Shown here: piece after piece, positions 6,452-20,175 of the stretch
Position numbering within the stretch: the stretch's first letter is position 1
How the letters are laid out: each line of letters starts with the position of its first letter
IMG/VR virus record: IMGVR_UViG_3300044535_002164
Location: 1-22,762 of that record
Direction: 5' to 3' (one strand)
Origin: a virus
Length of the DNA: 22,762 nucleotides
Program-made: the position numbers and the translations under genes
Notes under the pieces: generated by a model
What the model was told of the DNA's origin: nothing
Database searches by the model: none
Seen by the model: only the letters and a program-made list of their open reading frames with translations

Positions 6452-8098
6452 TTATATATTATCCATTCTATTTAACAGGTTAATTATCTTATATGATTCA
6501 TTCATTACCTGGTTTGCCATTTTTTTTCCCAGCAATCCTTCTCTGCTCATTCTTATTTTTATCTTTCTGGTAAACATGACTTTTTGTTCTGGTGTGAAAC
6601 TTTTATATAAATGATAAAGGGTGGGTGTAATTTTAACCAACTCCTCAAATGTTAATTCATCCCATTGATCCTCATATTTTCTTCGCATTTGTTTTATATT
6701 ATGAATCAATGCTTGTATCTCGAATGTTTTTAAATATACATCCACATTATTTTTATCCTTATTCTTTTCGTAATATTTTGATATGGTTTTTGAGAGATGT
6801 CTGTTGTGCAATGAATCATCCAACCAGTGCACCAATTCATGATATATCGAACCTTTAATTTTTTCCTCACTTAAATCATATTTGGCGGTATTATATGTTC
6901 TTATAAAATCATCAAGTGTGCTAAAACCAAGCGCGGAATCGATAAGATTGCTATTAACTGATATGGATATTAATTCTTTGCTTTGGTCTGATCTGTAATA
7001 ATTACTTCCGTAATTTATATGTATTTCGGTTGGGTTTATCTCGTGGGCTTTAACACATAATGGACTTTTTAATATTGAGGTGTCCGTTGTTCTTTTTGGG
7101 AATGAGTTCTGTGCTATCTTATTGTTAGCCCAAACCCTGTCAAGATCAGCTCTAAAATATGTATCATATATATAATCAACGTCATCATCAATTTCCATTA
7201 GCTTCTCCGTTAAAACTTCCCCCTCATCGATGTCCATAAGTTTTTTTATTCTGTTAATATCTTCGTGTTTTGTTTTTTTAACACAGTTAGGGTATCTCTT
7301 ACCAAACATAGTTTTCATTCCTTTTTGAGTATATCCTTTCCAACATCTTTCAGTTAATTCACCTTCTTTCATTTCTTCTTGTCTACCCATATGACTAAAT
7401 ACTTTTCTTATATCTTTGGGTAAATCGTTAATTGGTATTACCTTTGCCTTAATTGTTTCTAAACCTTTTCTTACCGCCTTTTGCGCTCTGTGGTGTCCGT
7501 CTATAATTGATATGAATTCACCATCATTATCAACAAATATTAATATTGGGTATTGTAAGTCGGCACTTTCTATTTTTTTAATCTCATCTTCATCACCATC
7601 CCAAGTTAATAGGTGTGGTTTTAATTCTTCTACTGATATATTACTTACAGGAATATCTTCTGTCACATTTAATAAATCCATAAGGGTTATTTTATCTCCT
7701 TCATCATTATCCCAAGATGTGTCGTGTAATCCTTCTTTCATCTTCTGAGTTTTCTTTTTTGATTGTTCTTTTTTGGATTCAATGTATTCAAAAGCAGTTC
7801 TTAATCTTTTCTTTACTTCAGGGTCTTTTGCTCTTTCCAAAGCAACCCTTAGTCTTTGGTGAATTAGATTTATAATTTGAGATTGTCTGGCGTGAGATTT
7901 GGATTTAAAACTTTCTTTATTTAAGGTGTCAACAATATCTTGTTTTGTTCTGAACTTTACAGATACAGTATCACTTGGATTTTCATCTGTGTATAATCTT
8001 CTGTCGGAACCTTTGGGTTTTTTTCCCGTTCCGATTTTGGGATCGGACTCAACCAAGTATTCATCCAAAGCTTTCTTTATTTGTTCTTGCAAATTCAT
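6452..8098 (-). CDS. multidomain phage protein: tag, ParB-like DGHHR domain, Cys module, HExxH metallopeptidase-like domain
   Basis: A 548-aa modular protein. Residues 1-18 (MNLQEQIKKALDEYLVES) are a short amphipathic tag. Residues 27-120 form a basic helical region (KPKGSDRRLYTDENP, then SHARQSQIINLIHQR). Residues 145-235 carry a ParB/sulfiredoxin-like core with IIDGHHRAQKAVRKG at 198-212. Residues 251-274 are a small module CWKGYTQKGM...NCVKK. Residues 279-302 repeat the tag motif (INRIKKLMDIDEGE). Residues 305-548 hold a zincin-like domain with HELVHWLD (H420, E421, H424) and a possible third ligand E460 in TFEIQA. Modules meet at L-T-E (248-250, 296-298) and L-M-E (300-302). The combination resembles phage polyvalent proteins that are packaged and injected. 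It is the last gene of the four-gene operon, three bases after the preceding stop. Confidence 0.9.
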   Translation of the reverse strand: MNLQEQIKKALDEYLVESDPKIGTGKKPKGSDRRLYTDENPSDTVSVKFRTKQDIVDTLNKESFKSKSHARQSQIINLIHQRLRVALERAKDPEVKKRLRTAFEYIESKKEQSKKKTQKMKEGLHDTSWDNDEGDKITLMDLLNVTEDIPVSNISVEELKPHLLTWDGDEDEIKKIESADLQYPILIFVDNDGEFISIIDGHHRAQKAVRKGLETIKAKVIPINDLPKDIRKVFSHMGRQEEMKEGELTERCWKGYTQKGMKTMFGKRYPNCVKKTKHEDINRIKKLMDIDEGEVLTEKLMEIDDDVDYIYDTYFRADLDRVWANNKIAQNSFPKRTTDTSILKSPLCVKAHEINPTEIHINYGSNYYRSDQSKELISISVNSNLIDSALGFSTLDDFIRTYNTAKYDLSEEKIKGSIYHELVHWLDDSLHNRHLSKTISKYYEKNKDKNNVDVYLKTFEIQALIHNIKQMRRKYEDQWDELTFEELVKITPTLYHLYKSFTPEQKVMFTRKIKIRMSREGLLGKKMANQVMNESYKIINLLNRMDNI

Positions 8099-9075: not shown

Positions 9076-11292
9076 TTATCTGTTTTTATTTGCTTCAATT
9101 GCTCTTAGTTGTGCCAAAGCTTCATGCTCCGTTTCATGTTTGCCAAGGGTCTTTCCCTTTTTTGATATCACGTACCATTTATCTCCTCTGTGTTTAATGT
9201 ATTCTGATAAATTTTTTGGTTGCTCCTCATTCATTGTGGTGTTTTTTCCCACAAATGCATTTGTTGTTTTTTCACCATTTCTTAATAGGGTTGCCGCTCT
9301 GGAATAACCATCCAGCAACTCGCCGTCAACAACAACGATTTCATTATGAATATCTGATGGATCAATATCATCCATTTCATAATCATATCTTTCATCACCC
9401 GATTCATAGTATTCCTTAAAATCTGAATCTGTTTGCAATAATGATTCCAAATCAAAATTATCCACATTTTCAAATTCAGAGCTTCTTATTCTGTCCTTAA
9501 ATCCCCATGGAATATCATCTTCATCTGGTGTTATGCTTTTTATATGATTCCATACATGATTTCCCATGAACTTGTTTTCATTAATGGTTCCGAAATTGCT
9601 GGTGAAATGAACATCGGATCCAACTTTTAAACCTTGTTTATTTAACCATTTTCCCAATTCAATATCCATATTTGGTAATGGTTCATTTTCATTTCCTGGT
9701 TTTGATATCTTTGGCAATATTACCTGGTTAATAAATTCAACCTCAACTTTGTCGTCCAATAGTTCTGATAAATTTGGACTCAATTTGATCGCATCCCAGA
9801 ATGCACCTGTTAGTTGTTTGAACTTATTATCTTTTGGTGATTTTAGTTCAGCTTGTGTAACATTCTTTGCGATTCCAAATAATGCTTTGGCTACGCTGGC
9901 TGTATCATTTAAATTATCCAATACGCCAACCGCATTTGATATAAAATCAATTCCTGGTATTAATGATGCTCCCAGTTTTCCAAGACCTTTTGCGGTTTCA
10001 ATCGCATCTTGTTTTGTTTTTTGGTCTTTTAATGCTTGCAACGCTTTTGATACCTCACCCCAGGTTATGGTTTCCATTTCCTCATTTAATGTTGCTGGTG
10101 TGTTATTATATCCGCATTTGTGACAGGTGTATGTATCTTCACCACCATCTTCAATAGCCCATGACCAACCACAACCATCACAAATAACATCACCATTCTC
10201 AACAACCTCACCCATTACATTCATCATCCTTTTCATTTTGGATAACTCCTCATTCAATTGTTTGGTTTCTTTTGCAATTTCATTATAGTCGTTTGCAATA
10301 TCTTTGTTTGTTGATATCATTTGTTCTGGTGCCATGTTCATCAATTCTTTCATTGTGAAAAATTTATATGATACATGTTCATTCTCATCCAATTCAATAT
10401 TATCCACATCAAACTCGTTTGTGTAGAATACATTTAGTTCCACATTTCCATAATCGTAAACTTCCAATGGTTTGAATGATGTTAATTCAACCCCAGCTTC
10501 TTCGAATACCTCTCTAACAATCGCTTCTTCTGGTGTTTCACCTTTCTCTATTCCACCACCCAACATTCCGTATTTACTTGGGTTTGTTGTTTCGTTTTTG
10601 CTTCTCTTAAATAATAGTGTTTTATTATCCAATACAACAAATAACAATGCAACCCTTTTTATATCATCCGCTTCATTTAATGTGGATTCGTCTTTCGTTT
10701 TTCCCCATTTTTTTCCTTTGCCTGGTGTTCCGCACGATGCTGGTGTCGGTCTGCATGACGGGTACTTCGATCGCTTCTCACCTTTTTCCCTTCCACATGC
10801 TTTGCATTTCTTTCTTCCGCTTTCTGGATCTTTTCTGCAGGTGTTGCAATCAACCCAACCTTTGTTGCCCTCACCACCTCTTCTGGAAAACCATCCGTGC
10901 AATCCGCTTTTTTTTTCTTTCGAATAATCAGTTTTTTTTGCCTCATCCATTGATTCTTCATTATCCAAATGATCATCAATCCACGCTTGTAGTTCATTTG
11001 AATCTGGTGCGTATTCTTTTCCTTTTGTTCTTGTTATGCCATCATGTGCTTTGTATAACAAATCTTTAATATCATCTGGAGCGTCATTAATATCTTCCTC
11101 TTTTAAATCCTTCCAGATTTTTCCTTGACGACATCTAACTATGGCACCTGATCGATATGCTGATGGTTTGTCATATTTTCTTCTGGCTATTCGTAAACAA
11201 CGATCAGCTTTTTCTTCATTGATTAAATCATTGCTTGGGTTTATTCCCATCATTTGTTTTAATCTAGAAAGTTCTTCATTAAGGTTCTGCAT
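9076..11292 (-). CDS. 738-aa modular phage polyprotein-like protein: Cys/basic DUF5872-like, Nudix, zinc ribbon, ParB-like, C-terminal module
   Basis: Residues 1-26 are a tag (NLNEELSRLKQMMGI...LINEE). Residues 30-66 (CLRIARRKYDKPSAYRSGAI) and 122-200 (SGLHGWFSRRGGEGNKGWVD and a Cys/Lys-rich tail) match my memory of phage DUF5872-type proteins. Residues 210-340 are a Nudix hydrolase with an intact box: G246-x5-E252-x7-R260-E261-x2-E264-E265-x-G267. Residues 346-358 repeat the tag. Residues 371-393 are a zinc ribbon (C371, C374, C390, C393). Residues 430-475 are Gly/hydrophobic. Residues 650-683 are ParB-like (LLDGYSRAATLLRNG). Residues 693-738 are a small terminal module (KWYVISKKGKTLGKHETEHE). 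Nearly every seam carries an L/I/M-N-E triplet (26, 207, 348, 404, 572, 689). The Nudix part could hydrolyse nucleotide derivatives. It is the first gene of the operon, and the GTATTTATA element is 28 bp upstream. Confidence 0.9.
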   Translation of the reverse strand: MQNLNEELSRLKQMMGINPSNDLINEEKADRCLRIARRKYDKPSAYRSGAIVRCRQGKIWKDLKEEDINDAPDDIKDLLYKAHDGITRTKGKEYAPDSNELQAWIDDHLDNEESMDEAKKTDYSKEKKSGLHGWFSRRGGEGNKGWVDCNTCRKDPESGRKKCKACGREKGEKRSKYPSCRPTPASCGTPGKGKKWGKTKDESTLNEADDIKRVALLFVVLDNKTLLFKRSKNETTNPSKYGMLGGGIEKGETPEEAIVREVFEEAGVELTSFKPLEVYDYGNVELNVFYTNEFDVDNIELDENEHVSYKFFTMKELMNMAPEQMISTNKDIANDYNEIAKETKQLNEELSKMKRMMNVMGEVVENGDVICDGCGWSWAIEDGGEDTYTCHKCGYNNTPATLNEEMETITWGEVSKALQALKDQKTKQDAIETAKGLGKLGASLIPGIDFISNAVGVLDNLNDTASVAKALFGIAKNVTQAELKSPKDNKFKQLTGAFWDAIKLSPNLSELLDDKVEVEFINQVILPKISKPGNENEPLPNMDIELGKWLNKQGLKVGSDVHFTSNFGTINENKFMGNHVWNHIKSITPDEDDIPWGFKDRIRSSEFENVDNFDLESLLQTDSDFKEYYESGDERYDYEMDDIDPSDIHNEIVVVDGELLDGYSRAATLLRNGEKTTNAFVGKNTTMNEEQPKNLSEYIKHRGDKWYVISKKGKTLGKHETEHEALAQLRAIEANKNR

Positions 11293-11344: not shown

Positions 11345-11370
11345 AAAATAAAGGGGTATTATAACCCCTT
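11345..11370 (-). terminator. probable terminator overlapping the end of the synthetase-like gene
   Basis: Minus strand AAGGGGT, loop TATAAT, ACCCCTT, then TATTTTATT. The last codons and the TAA stop of the synthetase-like gene lie in the stem and loop. The U-tract is imperfect. Confidence 0.65.
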
Positions 11371-12177
11371 ATTTAATTCATATGCTCTTGCCATTCTTGT
11401 TAAACCAATACCCGCGCCAAAACGTGGAAAGAAGTCGAACGATAAAAATTCTTCAAGTTCTTTTTCAACACGCTCTTTTCCGAATAATTCAAATAATTTT
11501 TGTGAATAACCACCATCTGTGATTGAGTAAAATAGGTTTCTCATTTCTTCTTTATCCACACTTCTTTCAGCCGACCCTATCGTTTCTTGACCAAATAAAA
11601 TAACATCAACTTTGCTGAAGATACCATCACCTTTATGTTTCATATTCCAAAATGGTGATGTTCTTATTGGGAAATTTTGTAGTGAAATTACATTACCTTT
11701 TTCTTTCCACATTCTTGATTCGTGCTCGTCTTCAAGAATTGGCACGTTGCCATACTCAGCACATACATCATCATAATTAACTTGAACCATTTCATCACCG
11801 AAACCAAGATATGCCAATAAATCACCTTCCAATTTAATTAAATCTTCCATAGTTCCTTTTGATTCGAACTCAAACATTGGGAATATTTTTTCATGTCTAC
11901 CTGGTATCGGTTCTTTTTCATCTCTGTATGATGTTGTAATACAAAATACACCTTCCCATTCTGGATTTTTTAATAATTCATATTCTAACCACATTTGTCC
12001 AGTTTGTGGCAAGGGCCATACTTCACCATTATAAGTGAAAGTGGATACAGAATGTGGATTCTCACATGCTGCTAAGATTGATAATCTTGATTGTGCTGGA
12101 ACTTCTTTGAATCCTTTGTTGATAAAGAACGTTCTCATTTTTTGTACCAATTCATGGTAAGTTTCTGTGTTTTTCAT
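11359..12177 (-). CDS. stand-alone class II synthetase core, asparagine synthetase / AsnRS-like
   Basis: A 272-aa protein, starting from the ATG at 12177; a TTG at 12201 would fall directly after the terminator T run and is less likely. It has the class II aaRS catalytic fold of the Asp/Asn/Lys subgroup. Motif 2 is TSYRDEKEPIPGRHEKIFPM followed by FEFES. An AsnRS-like GQETIGSAERS block follows, and motif 3 is FGAGIGLTRMARA with its arginine intact. The N-terminal anticodon-binding OB domain (about 100 aa) is absent, as in AsnA and the archaeal asparagine synthetase related to AsnRS. Ammonia-dependent asparagine synthesis through aspartyl-adenylate is therefore the best guess; an amino-acid-activating or tRNA-modifying enzyme is the alternative. 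The Asn-rich leader upstream supports a link to asparagine. Confidence 0.85.
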   Translation of the reverse strand: MKNTETYHELVQKMRTFFINKGFKEVPAQSRLSILAACENPHSVSTFTYNGEVWPLPQTGQMWLEYELLKNPEWEGVFCITTSYRDEKEPIPGRHEKIFPMFEFESKGTMEDLIKLEGDLLAYLGFGDEMVQVNYDDVCAEYGNVPILEDEHESRMWKEKGNVISLQNFPIRTSPFWNMKHKGDGIFSKVDVILFGQETIGSAERSVDKEEMRNLFYSITDGGYSQKLFELFGKERVEKELEEFLSFDFFPRFGAGIGLTRMARAYELNKGL

Positions 12178-12199
12178 GCTTTTTACTTTTTTTTTACCC

Positions 12200-12229
12200 A
12201 AAAAAAAATCTTATCATTACGATAAGATT
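12200..12229 (-). terminator. intrinsic terminator in front of the synthetase-like gene (putative attenuator)
   Basis: Minus strand AATCTTATC, loop GTAAT, GATAAGATT, then a run of T. The 9-bp stem is perfect. It begins 3 bp after the stop codon of the Asn-rich leader ORF and ends 23 bp before the ATG at 12177, with no room for a promoter in between. Expression of the synthetase-like gene must therefore read through it. Confidence 0.85.
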
Positions 12230-12521: not shown

Positions 12522-12530
12522 CTATTTATG
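12522..12530 (+). promoter_or_regulatory. late-type promoter element (CTATTTATG)
   Basis: ACTATTTATG, 24 bp upstream of the ATG at 12546. It overlaps an in-frame ATG at 12528, which argues against that ATG as the start. Confidence 0.6.
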
Positions 12531-12545
12531 TTTAAAGTACTTTAT

Positions 12546-13052
12546 ATGGAAAATCGTAATTTAATGAATGAAGAGATTAATAAAATGCGTAAAATGATGG
12601 GGTTAAATGAAGGATGGGATAATGATGATTATGTTGATGATATTAGCTCAGCTAAAAGTAGTGCGAAACGCCAATATGATTTCGATCAAGATGCTATTGA
12701 GTATGTTGGTGGTGAGGAAGAGTGGAATAAACTAACACAGGATGAAAAAGACTCCGTAATAAATGATATGGAGCGTGATTTTGATCGTAGTAGAAGTTTG
12801 GGTGAATCCAATGATAACATTATAAACCCAAATTATACTCACTTCGCGATTTTAAATTCAAATAATAAAATTGCAAGTGGTTGGGAGTACGCTTCAGATT
12901 TGGATCGAAGTGATATTATTTATTATGTCAAATTTGATATGGATGATATGGATTACAAACCATCGGAATACAAAATTAGAACAGCTGAATCTTTAAAAAA
13001 TAATGGGATTGACCCATTTAACCCAGAAAATTGGGATAAATATAATAATTAA
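12546..13052 (+). CDS. 168-aa tagged phage protein, function unknown
   Basis: The start at 12546 (MENRNLMNEEINKMRKMMGL) is preferred over the in-frame ATG at 12528 because the latter lies in the promoter element and because the shared tag begins here. The tag NEEINKMRKMMGLNEG matches the 738-aa protein's N-terminus and ends in L-N-E. Residues 20-85 are acidic and helical. The C-terminal domain (NYTHFAILNSNNKIASGWEY and onwards, ending GIDPFNPENW) looks like a small phage domain I have seen in other large phages, without a known function. It may be packaged cargo or a head protein. Confidence 0.85.
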   Translation: MENRNLMNEEINKMRKMMGLNEGWDNDDYVDDISSAKSSAKRQYDFDQDAIEYVGGEEEWNKLTQDEKDSVINDMERDFDRSRSLGESNDNIINPNYTHFAILNSNNKIASGWEYASDLDRSDIIYYVKFDMDDMDYKPSEYKIRTAESLKNNGIDPFNPENWDKYNN

Positions 13053-13325: not shown

Positions 13326-14459
13326 ATGTCAACACCGATAACTTATACAAGTACACCAATTAATGATGATTATGTTTTTACCTCAAAAAAATATGCGATA
13401 AGTAATGGTAGACCTGGTTCAACTGGATTTATTAATTATAGAAATAACCCGAATAGTAAAACTTGGTATCCAGCATATAATTATGACCAATATCATCCAA
13501 ACGGTACTGGTTATTATATAATATCAAATACCAGAGTGCAGGGTGGTCATGCACTAGCTGGTAGTGAGATACCAACATTTCAAGTCACAGGTAATACTAA
13601 TACTGCAATATTACATTTAATAAATAGATTACAAAATCGCACCACTTTTTATACCAATGTTGAGGCTGCTAAAAGTTCAATAATTGCTGACCCTGAGTCT
13701 TTGCAATTTGATGCCGCTTTGTCAAAATATGCTTATTACGCACCACAACATCTTAAATTAAATTTTGATTTTGGTAATTTGAATTGTGACATTAAATCAG
13801 CTGGTGGGGCTGGTCAAATTCATAATTTTACCAGTAATTTATCAGGTTATTTAAATAATATTGCTGATGATTATTTATTTGATGCTAACGATAATTCGAG
13901 TTTTTATCGACAAATAACTAATAATTTGCAAGTACCACTAACAATTAGTTCAGGTATAGCGTCAGTAGAATGTAGTGCTACCGAAGATTTTGTTATTGCT
14001 ATTTGTGTGAAATTAGGGGATATAAGTGCTAATACACAAATATTAGAAATAAGCGACCCTAATTGTATATTAAGTTATTCATCAGGTCAATTTATTTTTA
14101 GTTCTCGTGGTGATACTGTAACACACTCAACAGCATTAGGACTTGACCCTACAATTAATTTTCACACAGTTATATTTGGTAGAGATGTGGCAAATAATGA
14201 AATATTTATATATGTTAATGATAGTAATAATAATAATCAGTATAATACATCTACTCCCAATTCATCTTTCTCATCATTAACTTTTAATAATGATTTTTTT
14301 ATTGGTGATGGTGCAAATAATTTTCCATTTTACCTTGGTATATTACAATATTGGAAAGGTACTGGTTTGGTTGATACAACAACACCAACAATGCCTGGTG
14401 TTTCACAACCTGATTTTACAACTGAAATTTATAATCTATATACTAGCAGATGGAATTAA
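13326..14459 (+). CDS. 377-aa candidate tail-fibre or adhesin protein with LamG-like C-terminal part
   Basis: The composition is that of a secreted or virion surface protein: rich in Asn, Ser, Thr, Tyr and Gly, poor in Lys and Glu, with no signal peptide. The N-terminal 100 residues contain FTSKKYAISNGRPGSTGFIN and YPAYNYDQYHPNGTGYY, reminiscent of phage appendage proteins. Residues from about 215 to 355 follow the strand pattern of a laminin-G/concanavalin-like jelly roll (EDFVIAICVKLGDI, FIFSSRGDTVTHS, NFHTVIFGRDVANNEIFIYV, FFIGDGAN). Receptor binding or host attachment is the likely role. Its own CTATTTATA element lies upstream, and it ends convergently, overlapping the next gene's stop by 4 bp. 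Confidence 0.83.
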   Translation: MSTPITYTSTPINDDYVFTSKKYAISNGRPGSTGFINYRNNPNSKTWYPAYNYDQYHPNGTGYYIISNTRVQGGHALAGSEIPTFQVTGNTNTAILHLINRLQNRTTFYTNVEAAKSSIIADPESLQFDAALSKYAYYAPQHLKLNFDFGNLNCDIKSAGGAGQIHNFTSNLSGYLNNIADDYLFDANDNSSFYRQITNNLQVPLTISSGIASVECSATEDFVIAICVKLGDISANTQILEISDPNCILSYSSGQFIFSSRGDTVTHSTALGLDPTINFHTVIFGRDVANNEIFIYVNDSNNNNQYNTSTPNSSFSSLTFNNDFFIGDGANNFPFYLGILQYWKGTGLVDTTTPTMPGVSQPDFTTEIYNLYTSRWN

Positions 14460-15628
14460 CCCAATAAGTTAATCCATTTTTTAATATCATTAATCGCTTC
14501 ATCGAGGCGATTATTTTTTTCATATACAAATGAATCCATGGTGTCATAAGGTTTATTAAGAGCCATTAATGCAATCTCAACCTCCTTAAGACATTCATTT
14601 TGACCACCACCGCAAATGAGTATATTTGAGAATCTGGTTAAAAAATCCATAAGGTCTGGTATATTTATGCATTCATCGGCGAACTCAAGAAGTTCTCTTA
14701 CATTATCGCTACCATAATTTTCAATAAACTCGTCCCAGAATTCTTTATCCAATTCTCTGGTATCGTTAACGTTATGTTCGATCATCATTTTTATAAGACC
14801 AACGATATCATCGTCATCAATATCATTATCCATGCAATATCTAAAGAAAGCATAACCTTTATCGTAAAATATGGCTTTGGAATAAATGAGTTCTTCATCA
14901 ACACCGAGATCGTATAACCACATTTTATAATCATCTTCGTTAACCATACCAAGCGTATCGTAACCATTGTATAAAAAAACAATAATACCATCATGTTGGT
15001 TAAGCATATTAACCCAATTGTTCAAATCAAAGTTAATGTATTTAGAATATTCTGGTTGTATATCAACTGATATTATCGTCTTACCCGAAGTTTGGTTTTC
15101 ATTAATGGGATTTGCAGGGCCTCTTTGTGTATTAAACTCATATTTACTTGTATTTGAGATTGGATTTGCTTTTCCTCTTTGAGTACCAAATTCATACTTA
15201 CCAGTGTTTGCTGTTGGGTTTGCTTTTCCGCGCTTAGTTCTTTCTGGCGCTGGACTGTTTGTTGATGAAGTTGTGGTTGTATTTTCTTCATTCATATCAG
15301 AATTTTTTGGTTCTCTGTACATTTTTTCTCTGTGGGTATAATCTCTATTCTTACCAGAATTTAAAACAAATCCAAATCTACCATAAAAATCAAGCAACCT
15401 ATTTAAATTGCCACCATAAGCCGAAGATGGTGTTAAAGTTATCTTATAACCAATTTCATCGGCAATTTTACACAATTCATTCATAAAATCGGTTCCAATA
15501 CCAGTATTTCTTAATTTAATTGGAACAATAAAACCAGTTAAGTAAATAATTTTAAACTTATCTCTTTGGATAATTTCAAAACGAATATCACTAAATTTAT
15601 CTTTTAATATTTTCTCAACATCAATCAT
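14456..15628 (-). CDS. GNAT-like acetyltransferase fused through a repeat linker to a conserved phage domain
   Basis: A 390-aa protein. Residues 1-105 fit a GNAT N-acetyltransferase: the acetyl-CoA loop region is LRNTGIGTDFMNELCKIAD (residues 39-57), then ITLTPSSAYGG and FYGRFGFVLN (81-90), with a closing HREKMYRE. Residues 106-185 are a low-complexity linker with 18-residue repeats. Residues 186-370 form an acidic alpha/beta domain (DIQPEYSKYINF, FLYNGYDTLGMVNEDDY, FYDKGYAFFRYCMDNDI, GGGQNECLKEVEIALMAL). I recognise this as recurrent in large phages but cannot name it. MNEE at 112-115 and I-N-E at 175-177 flank the linker, like the seams of the 738-aa protein. Its start overlaps the nuclease stop by 4 bp. 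Confidence 0.85.
   Translation of the reverse strand: MIDVEKILKDKFSDIRFEIIQRDKFKIIYLTGFIVPIKLRNTGIGTDFMNELCKIADEIGYKITLTPSSAYGGNLNRLLDFYGRFGFVLNSGKNRDYTHREKMYREPKNSDMNEENTTTTSSTNSPAPERTKRGKANPTANTGKYEFGTQRGKANPISNTSKYEFNTQRGPANPINENQTSGKTIISVDIQPEYSKYINFDLNNWVNMLNQHDGIIVFLYNGYDTLGMVNEDDYKMWLYDLGVDEELIYSKAIFYDKGYAFFRYCMDNDIDDDDIVGLIKMMIEHNVNDTRELDKEFWDEFIENYGSDNVRELLEFADECINIPDLMDFLTRFSNILICGGGQNECLKEVEIALMALNKPYDTMDSFVYEKNNRLDEAINDIKKWINLLG
15092..15232 (-). repeat. 54-bp in-frame tandem repeats (18-aa unit, 2.6 copies)
   Basis: Encodes RGKANPTANTGKYEFGTQ, RGKANPISNTSKYEFNTQ and the partial RGPANPINENQ (residues 133-179) in the linker of the GNAT fusion. Copy number probably varies by recombination. 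Confidence 0.85.
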
Positions 15629-16209
15629 TGGATTCTATATTTTTCTGGATCAGAAGAAGTTGGTTTTGAATTATCGAAATAATATTGATAGACTTCATTA
15701 TTCGCATAGATTGTTTTATAAAACCCGCTTGGTATTGTGGCACCTGTTGGTAATTTAACACTATTTAAGTCAAAAACACATCTTATCTCGACAACCACAT
15801 TATATTTTGATGCTAATTCCCTTTCTTTTACCTCTAATAACCTCCAGGTTACGCGATTTAAACCTTCATGTTGTAATGCGCAGTTTAAATAAGAAAACGT
15901 CTTATAAAGCATTTCTTTGGTGCAATTAAAATCAGCCGCTGGTGCCATATGTCCTTTATCGTAAACATTGTGAACATAATCGGCATTATCTGATGTTTTT
16001 ACCTCTTTATCAGTATAGAAGTCCATACCAGTTCTGGGAGCTTTACCATCTGGACATAAAACAGTATATCTTACGAATTTTGGTTGTTCTAGTACCTCCG
16101 AGTATACACATTCATATATATCGGTTTTAATGTAAACAGAGTCCCTTAATTGTGCGCTTAGTGATAATGTTAATACTAAAAGTATTATTAATAATAAATT
16201 CTTTTTCAT
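15625..16209 (-). CDS. secreted DNA/RNA non-specific endonuclease (beta-beta-alpha-Me, NucA/Serratia type)
   Basis: A 194-aa protein. Residues 1-19 are a Sec signal peptide (MKKNLLLIILLVLTLSLSA). The catalytic block is YDKGHMAPAADF, with D84-K85-G86-H87 as the DRGH motif and H87 the general base. It is followed by FSYLNCALQHEGLNRVTWRL, where N118 is the metal-binding asparagine and E126 the family glutamate; spacing matches the Serratia nuclease within one residue. It is shorter than typical family members (about 230-270 aa) at the C-terminus but keeps the core. The product should act in the periplasm or outside the cell, for example degrading DNA released at lysis or incoming competitor DNA; that role is inferred. 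It is translationally coupled to the downstream GNAT fusion. Confidence 0.9.
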   Translation of the reverse strand: MKKNLLLIILLVLTLSLSAQLRDSVYIKTDIYECVYSEVLEQPKFVRYTVLCPDGKAPRTGMDFYTDKEVKTSDNADYVHNVYDKGHMAPAADFNCTKEMLYKTFSYLNCALQHEGLNRVTWRLLEVKERELASKYNVVVEIRCVFDLNSVKLPTGATIPSGFYKTIYANNEVYQYYFDNSKPTSSDPEKYRIQ

Positions 16210-16813: not shown

Positions 16814-17563
16814 ATGAATAGTGAAAATACTAATTTAAATGAAAATGACAATCTTAATGAAATTATCGTTAAGATTAATGAATTAAAAGGAATCCAAGCT
16901 AAATTAGATGAGGCATTAGTTAGTTATAAAGAATCTATCGCTGAATTAGAAAAAGCAAAGGATCAATTAGTACCTGAGGTTATGGAGGCTTTTAGGGGTC
17001 AAACAGAAGGTGCTGAAAAATTAAAAATATCGATAGATAATGTTTTAGTTGAGATTATACAAGAATCTGAAAAATTAACGGTATCTTATAAAAATGCATT
17101 TGATACAGCGTTAGAAAAAGTTAATAAAAATACAAAAAAAGTATTAGAACAAATTTTAGAGAACTCAAAAGTGGCATCTAAAGTTAAGGGTCAATTAAAA
17201 ATTGATGGTTCTAAAGTATTTGAGGGTATTAATGAAATGTTAGGTAAGGTAACTGAATGGTTAAGTAATGCTTATAATAAAATAAACATTTTCAGTAGTG
17301 AGGCTCAAGAGGGTGTTGATGAAATAGAAAGTATGATCAAAAACTATGAAAATATGGAATCGGATAGTTTTGCAACACAAAATATGGATGATGTTGAATC
17401 AGGTAATTTGGAAGAGGATGTAGTTGAAGAAGAAAATGAGTCTTGGATGAAAATGAGAGCTGGTGCTGATGGTAAAGTATTTGAAAATGAGTCTGATGTT
17501 GAGGAAGAAAAATCAGAACTTAATGAAACAATTAATAGATTTAAACAAATTATAAATTACTAA
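16814..17563 (+). CDS. 249-aa acidic coiled-coil protein, possible scaffold or internal head protein
   Basis: It is almost wholly alpha-helical and charged. Residues 10-60 (IVKINELKGIQAKLDEALVS) and 75-150 have coiled-coil heptads. Residues 185-235 are very acidic, with VVEEENESWMKMRAGADGKV. The C-terminus SELNETINRFKQIINY (234-249) is a version of the tag motif seen at the N-termini of the 738-aa and 168-aa proteins, here placed at the opposite end. L-N-E triplets also occur at the start (TNLNENDNLNE). High charge, coiled coil and putative protease sites resemble phage scaffold or internal proteins, which is inference. The next gene starts 3 bp after its stop. Confidence 0.87.
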   Translation: MNSENTNLNENDNLNEIIVKINELKGIQAKLDEALVSYKESIAELEKAKDQLVPEVMEAFRGQTEGAEKLKISIDNVLVEIIQESEKLTVSYKNAFDTALEKVNKNTKKVLEQILENSKVASKVKGQLKIDGSKVFEGINEMLGKVTEWLSNAYNKINIFSSEAQEGVDEIESMIKNYENMESDSFATQNMDDVESGNLEEDVVEEENESWMKMRAGADGKVFENESDVEEEKSELNETINRFKQIINY

Positions 17564-17715: not shown

Positions 17716-17744
17716 AAAAGAGAGCTTTAAGCTCTCTTTTTTTT
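17716..17744. terminator. bidirectional intrinsic terminator
   Basis: AAAAGAGAGC, loop TTTAA, GCTCTCTTTT. The symmetrical A and T flanks serve both the + strand unit ending at 17712 and the - strand helicase gene ending at 17743. Confidence 0.93.
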
Positions 17745-20175
17745 ATTCACGTATTAAAAAATATAACTCATCTTTTGGTCTTGTTACCGCAACATAGTGA
17801 ATATTTCTAGATTCAATATCAACATCACCTTCATCGGTTAAATAGGTGTATTTATAATCATAATCATTTTCTATCATTTCTGGGTCAATTGAGTTTATGA
17901 TTACACATCTTGGAAACTCACGACCTTTACTTTTATGTATACTTGTTATGAAAACTTCACATTCATTATTTGATTCAATGAAACCAATTAGACCCATAAC
18001 ATTACCATGATAAGGTGCCACGGCATCGATTCTTTTTTTCAATGATGGATTAATCTTACCTTCTCGAATATTTTTAATATCTTGACCCGTTATAAAATTA
18101 AAATATCTCATTTTAATTTTCTTTTTCAAACATTCTTTTTCAATTTCTTTAATAGTGTAATTCGTTCTCGCTAACATTGTTAAAGGTTTACCATCCTCAA
18201 TCATTTCAGCTAATTGGAACTCATCAATCAATTTATGATTAACAATACCCTCTTTTTCATGAAATGGTATTGCAGTTAAGTTACTGTATTTATTTGAATT
18301 TTCAACAATTTTAATAGCCGATCTAAAGTTCTTAGTTAAGGTCATGTAACTTGTTTTACGTTTACTCTTTAATAAAGTTTCAATAGCATCACAATTAGCA
18401 CCAGAAAAACCATAGATTGATTGATTAATATCACCAATTAAATGATATTGTTTCGCATTTAATTGTAATAATATTTTCATTTGTAGTGTTGATGTATCTT
18501 GATATTCATCAACAAAAACATATTCATATATATTCTCAAAATATTTTTTGTATTGTGGGTTTCTTGATAATTTTTCAGTATCAATTAACATATCAGAAAA
18601 ATCTCTACTTTTTGTTTCTTTAATAAATTTAGCATATGCATCATAAAATCTTGGTTTTGGTGATTTAACATCATCCATAGATTGTAGTTTATAAGCTGAA
18701 AATGATGCTGAAATTACACCACTTTCTTCATAAAATTTATCAATAGTTTCAGCATACTCTTTTTTAATTTTCATCGGATCTTTTATATGTGGTTTATATT
18801 TATCTTTATACCAATTGGTAAAATCATAAAAAGTAACAATAGGTTTAAATAATCCCATTTTACCTAATAAACTACTGGTAAAGCTGTGTATTGTTGTTAT
18901 TTTAACATCGTGTTTAATACGAGATTTTAATTCATTAACAGCATCATTGGTAAAACTAAAGAAGATTATTTTACTAGGGTCGGCACCGTCTTCAACCATC
19001 TTATTTAACCTACCAACAGTGCTGTGTGTATTATGTGTCACAATATGATTATCCGTAACGTATAAATGATCTGGATGGTCAATCTCAATACATTGACACT
19101 CAACTGTATCAAAATATTCGATTGATTCAACCGCTCTGTATGGTATATATGTTTTACCTTTATCAACTAAGATATCACGTTTGCGTGGTAATGTAAAAGC
19201 TTTAAATTTTAATTCTTTAGGTAAACAAATAGACATAACATACGCTTGGTTACATTCAATATAAACACCATTCTTTTTATACCTTCCTCTTTTTAGTGAT
19301 ACATAAACAATACCACCGATAGAGTTAACTAACTCAATAATATCATCAACGAGTTTTTTTGATGATAATGTTATGAAAATAGAATTTTTTTCTGGATATC
19401 CATCAGTATCTAATAAACCATTTAATAATCTAATTCTTTGTTCTTCAGATGTTGTTAAATACTCTTTGGGTATAAATTTATCTATTGATAAGTGACCCAT
19501 TAATCCTAATGTTCTTAATTCATTCATTAGTGGGTTAATACTTAATTTTCCACTAGTTATAGTGTAGTCATTTTCTCGATCAACCTTTGATCGTAAAGAT
19601 AATCCCATTGGTTCTATTAAATTACGAATCTCATTTACAATTTCATAATCGGAATTGGTAAATGTAATTTGTGATTGTCTACTTAATCCACCATCACCAA
19701 GTAAACAACCTAATAGATATGGATCAATAGGTAGAGTTTTTTCTGGATATTCAATATTAGTTAATGGTATATACCAAAATTTACTTTTAATTCCGCGAGA
19801 ATCAACATTATATAATTTAGACATCATGTCTTCAGTTGTCACAATATTAAAATTTTTACTACCTTTACCTCTTTGATTTCTTGTTTGTGCTTTCCATAAA
19901 TGTTCTTTACCAGCATAGGTGAATGAACCATCACTAAATGTTACTTTATAAGCTTCTTTTAAACCTTGTGGGTATATACCAACAACATTACTAACTTCCC
20001 CATTTGGTGTTAAAACCTCATCACCAATTTTAATTTCACCCATTGTTGTCCAACCTTTTGGTGTTAATATCTTACAAAAAAGTGGTTGCTCTTTTCCTGA
20101 ACCAGCTGTTGCCGATAGAATGATTGAATCTTCACCCTTGTAATTAATAAACTTTGATTGTTCGTCTGTGTACAT
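17743..20175 (-). CDS. UvrD-like SF1 DNA helicase interrupted by an intein
   Basis: 810 codons, of which residues 29-382 are an intein. The mature protein would be 456 aa, a compact UvrD/PcrA-type 3'-5' helicase. Host motifs: Q-motif YTDEQSKFI (2-10); Walker A SATAGSGK|T split by the intein; motif Ia FFSFTNDAVNELKSRI; motif II VDEYQD (555-560); motif III GDINQSIYGFSGA (581-593); motif IV LTKNFRS; motif V SIHKSKGREF (745-754); motif VI YVAVTRPKD (794-802). It would unwind DNA in phage replication, recombination or repair. Without splicing the ATP site cannot form. Upstream a TACTTTTG (-7-like, 20194-20201) exists without a good TTTG partner. It converges on the terminator at 17716. Confidence 0.93.
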   Translation of the reverse strand: MYTDEQSKFINYKGEDSIILSATAGSGKEQPLFCKILTPKGWTTMGEIKIGDEVLTPNGEVSNVVGIYPQGLKEAYKVTFSDGSFTYAGKEHLWKAQTRNQRGKGSKNFNIVTTEDMMSKLYNVDSRGIKSKFWYIPLTNIEYPEKTLPIDPYLLGCLLGDGGLSRQSQITFTNSDYEIVNEIRNLIEPMGLSLRSKVDRENDYTITSGKLSINPLMNELRTLGLMGHLSIDKFIPKEYLTTSEEQRIRLLNGLLDTDGYPEKNSIFITLSSKKLVDDIIELVNSIGGIVYVSLKRGRYKKNGVYIECNQAYVMSICLPKELKFKAFTLPRKRDILVDKGKTYIPYRAVESIEYFDTVECQCIEIDHPDHLYVTDNHIVTHNTHSTVGRLNKMVEDGADPSKIIFFSFTNDAVNELKSRIKHDVKITTIHSFTSSLLGKMGLFKPIVTFYDFTNWYKDKYKPHIKDPMKIKKEYAETIDKFYEESGVISASFSAYKLQSMDDVKSPKPRFYDAYAKFIKETKSRDFSDMLIDTEKLSRNPQYKKYFENIYEYVFVDEYQDTSTLQMKILLQLNAKQYHLIGDINQSIYGFSGANCDAIETLLKSKRKTSYMTLTKNFRSAIKIVENSNKYSNLTAIPFHEKEGIVNHKLIDEFQLAEMIEDGKPLTMLARTNYTIKEIEKECLKKKIKMRYFNFITGQDIKNIREGKINPSLKKRIDAVAPYHGNVMGLIGFIESNNECEVFITSIHKSKGREFPRCVIINSIDPEMIENDYDYKYTYLTDEGDVDIESRNIHYVAVTRPKDELYFLIRE
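19030..20091 (-). other. 354-aa intein with LAGLIDADG endonuclease, putative class 3
   Basis: Splice junctions are fixed by the helicase: GSGK | EQPLFCKILT ... IVTHN | THSTV, so the insertion sits between the Walker A Lys and Thr. The intein N-terminus reads KILTPKGWTTMGEIKIGDEV. The first residue is Glu, not Cys, Ser or Ala. Residues matching the class 3 W-C-T signature are W94 (in KEHLWK), C362 (in CIEIDHPDHLY) and T380 (in VTHN). The endonuclease motifs are LLGCLLGDGG (154-163) and LLNGLLDTDG (250-259), of the two-motif LAGLIDADG type. The C-terminal H381-N382 and the extein Thr are intact, so splicing and homing both look possible. Confidence 0.9.

Follow-up and report, generated by a model that had tools for sequence, protein, structure and literature searches.

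The 738-amino-acid (aa) protein encoded at positions 9076 to 11292 (minus strand) of the window, by which we mean the whole 22,762-nucleotide stretch of viral DNA analyzed, probably (at roughly 0.7) serves in a marine jumbo phage of the T4 superfamily as a cargo polyprotein that is targeted to the capsid and cleaved there by the prohead protease. This reading, which the initial annotation had proposed and which the sequence evidence supports, rests on a leader peptide, on hydrophobic-x-E (hxE) seams, on modules that are permuted among homologues, and on an S77 protease together with an L-N-E capsid site in a colinear relative. In T4, the protease gp21 cuts after L/I-x-E, and the internal proteins IPI-III and Alt carry a capsid-targeting sequence (PMC9026906).

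Modules of the 738-aa protein

The open reading frame (ORF) runs from 11292 to 9076, and the plus strand of the same coordinates is rich in stop codons. It has a near-identical relative (L001, 95%) and an orthologue in the colinear 299-kb contig G046. All features in this section lie on the minus strand, and a slash marks a putative cut. The N-terminal leader (MQNLNEELSRLKQMMGINPSNDLINE/E, residues 1 to 27; 11212 to 11292) is followed by a DUF5872-like basic Cys module (residues 28 to 66; 11095 to 11211) with a core net charge of +10. Its match to DUF5872 (PF19197) reaches 12.6 bits (E = 0.22), under the curated cut-off of 27.5 bits; a stand-alone relative, L163, scores 26.6 bits (E = 9.6e-6), and the module occurs with a leader of its own in immuto and about 80 contigs; immuto35A_186 combines it with a Cys/basic module behind the leader IIKEILSE/. 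The seam MDE/A (residues 115 to 117; 10942 to 10950) separates it from a Cys/basic module with six Cys and a net charge of +17 (residues 118 to 200; 10693 to 10941), known from 83 contexts. Beyond the seam LNE/A (residues 205 to 207; 10672 to 10680), which reads LNE, INE, or MNE in homologues, comes a Nudix hydrolase module (residues 213 to 332; 10297 to 10656; Pfam PF00293, 2.8e-18). The identity of this module is certain, as the Nudix box Gx5Ex7REUxEExGU is perfectly matched (GGIEKGETPEEAIVREVFEEAGV). Its PDB relatives are MutT-like, and the PDB confirms this part only of the protein.

An internal copy of the leader (LNEELSKMKRMMNVMGE/, residues 346 to 363; 10204 to 10257) precedes a probable zinc ribbon (CxxC..CxxC; DUF1451, E = 0.0016; residues 369 to 398; 10099 to 10188), which ends near the seam LNE/E (residues 402 to 404; 10081 to 10089). 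The adjoining region (residues 405 to 569; 9586 to 10080) is predicted by AF2, at low confidence, to be helical, and searches of Pfam and PHROG returned no match for it. The seam INE/N (residues 570 to 572; 9577 to 9585) leads into a ParB-like module with the motif VVDGELLDGYSR (residues 573 to 686; 9235 to 9576); INE, ISE, or VNE stands before this module in L002, L001, and L248, and its homologues in L002 and L248 are found in other orders. The last seam, MNE/E (residues 687 to 689; 9226 to 9234), is followed by a C-terminal module of 49 aa (residues 690 to 738; 9079 to 9225), the final 45 aa of which match phrog_3684 (7e-12).

The chain holds domains of disparate activity (Nudix, zinc ribbon, ParB-like, and basic modules). 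The Nudix enzyme is certain, the C-terminal module has a database match, and the zinc ribbon is retained as probable, whereas the DUF5872-like part does not reach the Pfam cut-off and the ParB-like part, which has no Pfam match, owes its label to a DG..R motif and to its relatives. An AF2 model of the whole protein (17 partial rows) has a mean pLDDT of 45 and is confident only in the C-terminal module (pLDDT >90 over about residues 700 to 730), so the module edges given here are sequence-based rather than structure-based. The C-terminal module also matches a stretch of Vibrio CP-T1 portal proteins. Separately, a Nudix-like stretch (515 to 662 of 794) in phrog_15528, which is named portal protein, matches residues 205 to 355.

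Placement of L/I/M-N-E triplets

The initial annotation had listed six L/I/M-N-E triplets, and all are where it placed them (INE 24-26, LNE 205-207, LNE 346-348, LNE 402-404, INE 570-572, and MNE 687-689); it overlooked the MDE seam at residues 115 to 117. Together with a further LNE within the N-terminal leader (residues 4 to 6) there are seven [LIM]NE triplets, compared with 0.85 expected from composition-preserving shuffles, none of which (0/5000) reached seven. In the same protein the generic T4 motif [LI]xE shows no enrichment (10 versus 9.7 expected in shuffles). The signal here is therefore the N at P2 and the placement at module edges, and counting in one protein would not by itself carry the argument. 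The chance-level [LI]xE count is compatible with an ordinary cytoplasmic multidomain phage protein, in which the leader-like helix would be a generic interaction segment and hxE a matter of composition. We consider this very improbable on the evidence of the leader and of the homologues.

A leader peptide common to unrelated proteins

The 738-aa protein shares its N-terminus, a leader peptide with the consensus MNLQENIxRIKxMMG[LI]xxE, with dozens of unrelated proteins of other jumbo phages; this leader ends in an hxE site (DLINE/E). A position-specific scoring matrix (PSSM) was built from 41 independent leaders, excluding the window and its near relatives. With this matrix, residue 4 scores 37.4 bits, higher than all 948,290 null positions (internal positions of other ORFs), and a second copy is placed at residue 346 (17.6 bits, null p = 1e-6). 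Its counterpart in L425, L503, and L002 is their C-terminal tag. Such an internal copy is unusual, since in a 290-kb jumbo contig the PSSM matches 9 of 370 ORFs and all nine matches are N-terminal. That distribution, and the occurrence of the leader on many unrelated proteins, argue against a generic interaction segment in a cytoplasmic protein.

Other leader families differ in sequence (RMQKLAGI; ITESQLxxLIRKVxxE) and share the same kind of end, which points to a protease site. [LIVM]xE lies at most nine residues from the leader motif in 58/65 MMG, 46/51 LAGI, and 8/13 ESQL leaders, against 10% to 13% in control windows; the MMG figure is partly biased, because some of that set was fetched by a pattern selecting MMG plus xxT[AG]A codons that favors such ends, whereas the LAGI set was not and its figure is unaffected. 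The C-terminal tags differ in sequence from the N-terminal leaders.

The leaders may mimic the docking end of the prohead scaffold. In 147 ORFs, RMQKLAGI or a close variant stands only a few residues from the stop codon; some 60 of these ORFs belong to gp21-anchored loci, where they come right after the protease and precede gp23, which is the scaffold position. The immuto-type cargo leader MKKQILSEEFxRMQKLAGIITE holds this same peptide and is nearly identical to the scaffold end, a further point against the cytoplasmic alternative. In jumbo phages the scaffold end NPQFxRMKDLMGKIK compares with RIKxMMG of the leader, a modest match (jumbo-group scaffold ends score -19 to +7 against the leader PSSM), so scaffold mimicry is a hypothesis that is well supported in one group. 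Resemblance to the scaffold C-terminus sets these leaders apart from the T4 capsid-targeting sequence, MKTYQEFIAE.

Seams in homologues and permuted modules

Three small basic Cys modules (CWKGY, DUF5872, and Cys/basic) were traced through more than 500 loci. A [LIMV]xE ending at most seven residues upstream was present in 96/108 distinct contexts for CWKGY, 102/107 for DUF5872, and 78/83 for Cys/basic. Pooled, this amounts to 276 of 298 contexts (89% to 95% for each module), which are distinct upstream sequences and not independent events. The background in the same proteins is 0.10 to 0.19, and an enrichment measured in this way is not expected if hxE merely reflects the composition of a cytoplasmic protein. 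The expectation that the triplets persist while linkers diverge was borne out at the internal edges examined, where hydrophobic-x-E is kept and x, the linker, and the neighboring module vary. For example, the hxE/AKKTD seam is kept in L001, L002, L425, L503, and L509 despite differing upstream sequence. In 10 of 107 CWKGY contexts the seam is itself a copy of a T4-type leader ([ST][YF]xxF..E; background 0.0014). In cyanophages the P2 residue of the seam does not simply track gp23, which has LTE where the seams often have LDE or FQE.

Module order is not fixed. L002 has GNAT, zinc ribbon, leader, DUF5872, ParB-like, Cys/basic, Nudix, and C-terminal tag, while L248 has leader, a domain without assigned family, ParB-like, and zinc ribbon; the zinc-ribbon module is found in other orders in L002, L248, L382, and L290. 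The window itself encodes a second multi-module protein of 548 aa (6452 to 8098, minus strand), composed of leader, module A, MKE/ParB-like, LTE/CWKGY, an internal leader (VLTE/) at residue 277 (PSSM p = 4e-6), and a module with an HExxH motif (YHELVHWLDD). This protein equals the 160-aa L294 with the ParB-like module added exactly at the MKE seam and the HExxH module after the internal leader. Its ParB-like module stands alone, with its own leader, in L231, L241, L252, and L253.

If separately tagged genes had fused, remnants of their leaders and E residues would be expected in the chain, and L425 and L503 end exactly at the position of the internal leader of the 738-aa protein, which forms their C-terminus. 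The leader could thus be a head-targeting or docking peptide that is cut off at the ends only, or not at all, with the modules staying joined and the internal hxE sites being relics of gene fusion. We regard this as unlikely, although it is the most plausible of the alternatives, because relics should decay and hxE is instead kept at module edges in about 93% of the 298 contexts while x and the linkers vary. It is also kept at seams with no leader remnant (ELTE/CWKGY, GMDE/AKKTD).

Prohead protease and capsid site in relatives

The initial annotation had suggested looking for a gp21-like protease. None was found in the window contig, a fragment of only 22.8 kb, and we therefore examined the colinear relative G046 (298,833 bases), in which a Peptidase_S77 is present. 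G046 is inverted relative to the window and matches 13 of its ORFs in the same order except for one local swap; its polyprotein orthologue is 69% identical over residues 26 to 360, and its helicase 73%. The Peptidase_S77, a prohead protease of the T4 gp21 type (E = 5.9e-20), is followed by a scaffold-like gene and then by a gp23-like capsid protein. The N-terminus of the latter reads ENQASYMLNE/ATSLG at the T4-like propeptide site, which was placed by analogy, and the capsid proteins of ten other jumbo loci have LINE, LLNE, or MLNE there. Hence the L/I/M-N-E of the seams is the capsid propeptide motif in the same phage group. A further relative, G029 (190 kb), has a Peptidase_S77 (1.5e-19) and the helicase of the window. 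Most leader- or module-bearing contigs larger than 150 kb have an S77 match; the leader-bearing G030 (274 kb) and G023 (152 kb) do not, perhaps being incomplete or divergent. The loci L272 and L273 of contig G019 show two Peptidase_S77 matches in one frame of about 614 to 632 aa, so that the prohead protease is possibly duplicated in that genome.

Comparison with known systems

As in T4 IPI-III and Alt, a short leader ending in hydrophobic-x-E is common to the cargo and related genomes encode a gp21-type protease; the C-terminal tags of these phages are likewise comparable to the C-terminal propeptide of T4 Alt. T4 cargo, however, has one protein per leader, whereas here there are several modules per chain and the leader recurs inside. 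Cutting at several sites within one head protein, as proposed here, is known for the T4 core proteins gp22 and gp67 and for SPN3US head propeptides (PMC9026906, PMC10052503), but those cuts serve to clear scaffold or propeptide fragments, not to free several different enzyme modules.

The polyvalent proteins of phages and conjugative elements (Iyer et al. 2017, PMC5512222) likewise unite many disparate domains (GNAT, ParB-like, and others) in a single chain and shuffle them among elements. They are thought to be injected and have been likened to polyproteins, with cleavage by embedded zincins proposed. The 738-aa protein could accordingly be of this type, with an embedded or neighboring zincin metallopeptidase, and not the prohead protease, making the cuts; the HExxH module of the adjacent 548-aa protein would fit this. 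Such processing is improbable, since the 738-aa protein has no metallopeptidase match and no conserved HExxH, and since its seams carry the motif that this phage group has at the gp23 propeptide site. The part of the Iyer et al. paper available to us describes no capsid-targeting leader or prohead-protease seams of the kind found here. The sequence HETEH near the C-terminus of the 738-aa protein was considered as a zincin motif and rejected, because the 95%-identical relative has HETER instead.

Cyanophages carry concatemers of CWKGY-type and related basic modules. The S-SM1 T4-GC 119 protein (SSM1_115) and SSCSM1_29 of S-SCSM1 have a CWKGY-type module and hxE before modules, as in the window; they also contain look-alikes of the DUF5872 and Cys/basic modules, and no Nudix or ParB part was seen in them. 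SSCSM1_29 is annotated in its record as "virion protein", and the S-SCSM1 paper reports that mass spectrometry detected 45 virion proteins. The open literature searched contains no description of prohead-protease polyproteins or scaffold-mimic leaders, and searches there on DUF5872 and on cyanophage capsid targeting likewise returned no prior description of such a design. The DUF5872 family does appear in one paper about an algal giant virus. The cyanophage concatemers L524, L523, and L310 end in DUF6321 (PF19846), and these ends resemble by eye the C-terminal part of the immuto, L005, and L006 genes.

Proposed processing and implications

Under the cargo-polyprotein reading, the 738-aa protein would be made as one chain, and its leader, with the internal copy, would play the part of a T4 capsid-targeting sequence, perhaps as a mimic of the docking peptide at the scaffold C-terminus. 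The leader would dock to the prohead core, the whole chain would enter, and the prohead would then close. Judging from the motif and the genome, a gp21-type protease would cut behind hydrophobic-x-E sites, which here are mostly L/I/M-N-E. The leaders would be lost, and two basic Cys modules together with the Nudix, zinc-ribbon, helical, ParB-like, and C-terminal parts would be set free. The released modules would stay with the DNA or leave with it. The basic Cys modules may bind DNA, given their net charge (+9 to +17), and the enzymes may be ejected, following the T4 precedent (PMC9026906); ejection is not required for the Nudix and ParB-like parts, which are acidic.

The leader and seam design recurs in many marine T4-type phages. 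On balance, the odds seem even that polyproteins are a common head cargo of marine T4-superfamily phages, in which leaders copy the C-terminal docking peptide of the scaffold, modules are gained, lost, and permuted at hxE seams, and the prohead protease releases several packaged enzymes and small basic Cys peptides, the leader proper to each lineage (RMQKLAGI, RIKxMMG, or T4-type F-x-x-E) being repeated inside the cargo. If true, T4-type protein packaging would include a polyprotein route, and leader plus hxE would constitute a sequence code for predicting which uncharacterized marine-phage genes enter the head. The roles of packaged proteins at the start of infection would become testable, and leaders and seams could be used to load several proteins into phage capsids from one chain. 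Scaffold mimicry would also supply a concrete candidate docking site for targeting leaders.

Other genes in the window

Several other genes of the window bear leaders or tags. The gene at 12528 to 13052 (plus strand) has a leader (MNEEINKMRKMMGLNE/, PSSM 28.0 bits), and its G046 counterpart adjoins the polyprotein orthologue. A GNAT-like multi-module protein (14456 to 15628, minus strand) carries the C-terminal tag LDEAINDIKKWINLLG (p = 7e-6 for the tag of its L001 counterpart), and the protein at 16814 to 17563 (plus strand) carries the C-terminal tag NETINRFKQIINY, its G046 orthologue ending in NEAINRFKKIINYI. The GNAT-like protein further contains three repeats of RG[KP]ANP..N..YEF.TQ and a domain without assigned family (ICGGGQNECLKEVEIAL) that recurs in L248.

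The gene at 17743 to 20175 (minus strand) encodes a UvrD-type helicase with a LAGLIDADG intein after the Walker A motif (SATAGSGK); the intein is present in G029, and the relatives in L001 and G046 are without the insert. The product of 15625 to 16209 (minus strand) is a DNA/RNA non-specific endonuclease (PF01223, 2.2e-22) with a signal-peptide-like N-terminus. The gene at 11359 to 12201 (minus strand) encodes a class II tRNA-synthetase-core protein (PF00152, 3.2e-13) that is close to asparagine synthetase A or tRNA ligase paralogues and 82% identical in G046.
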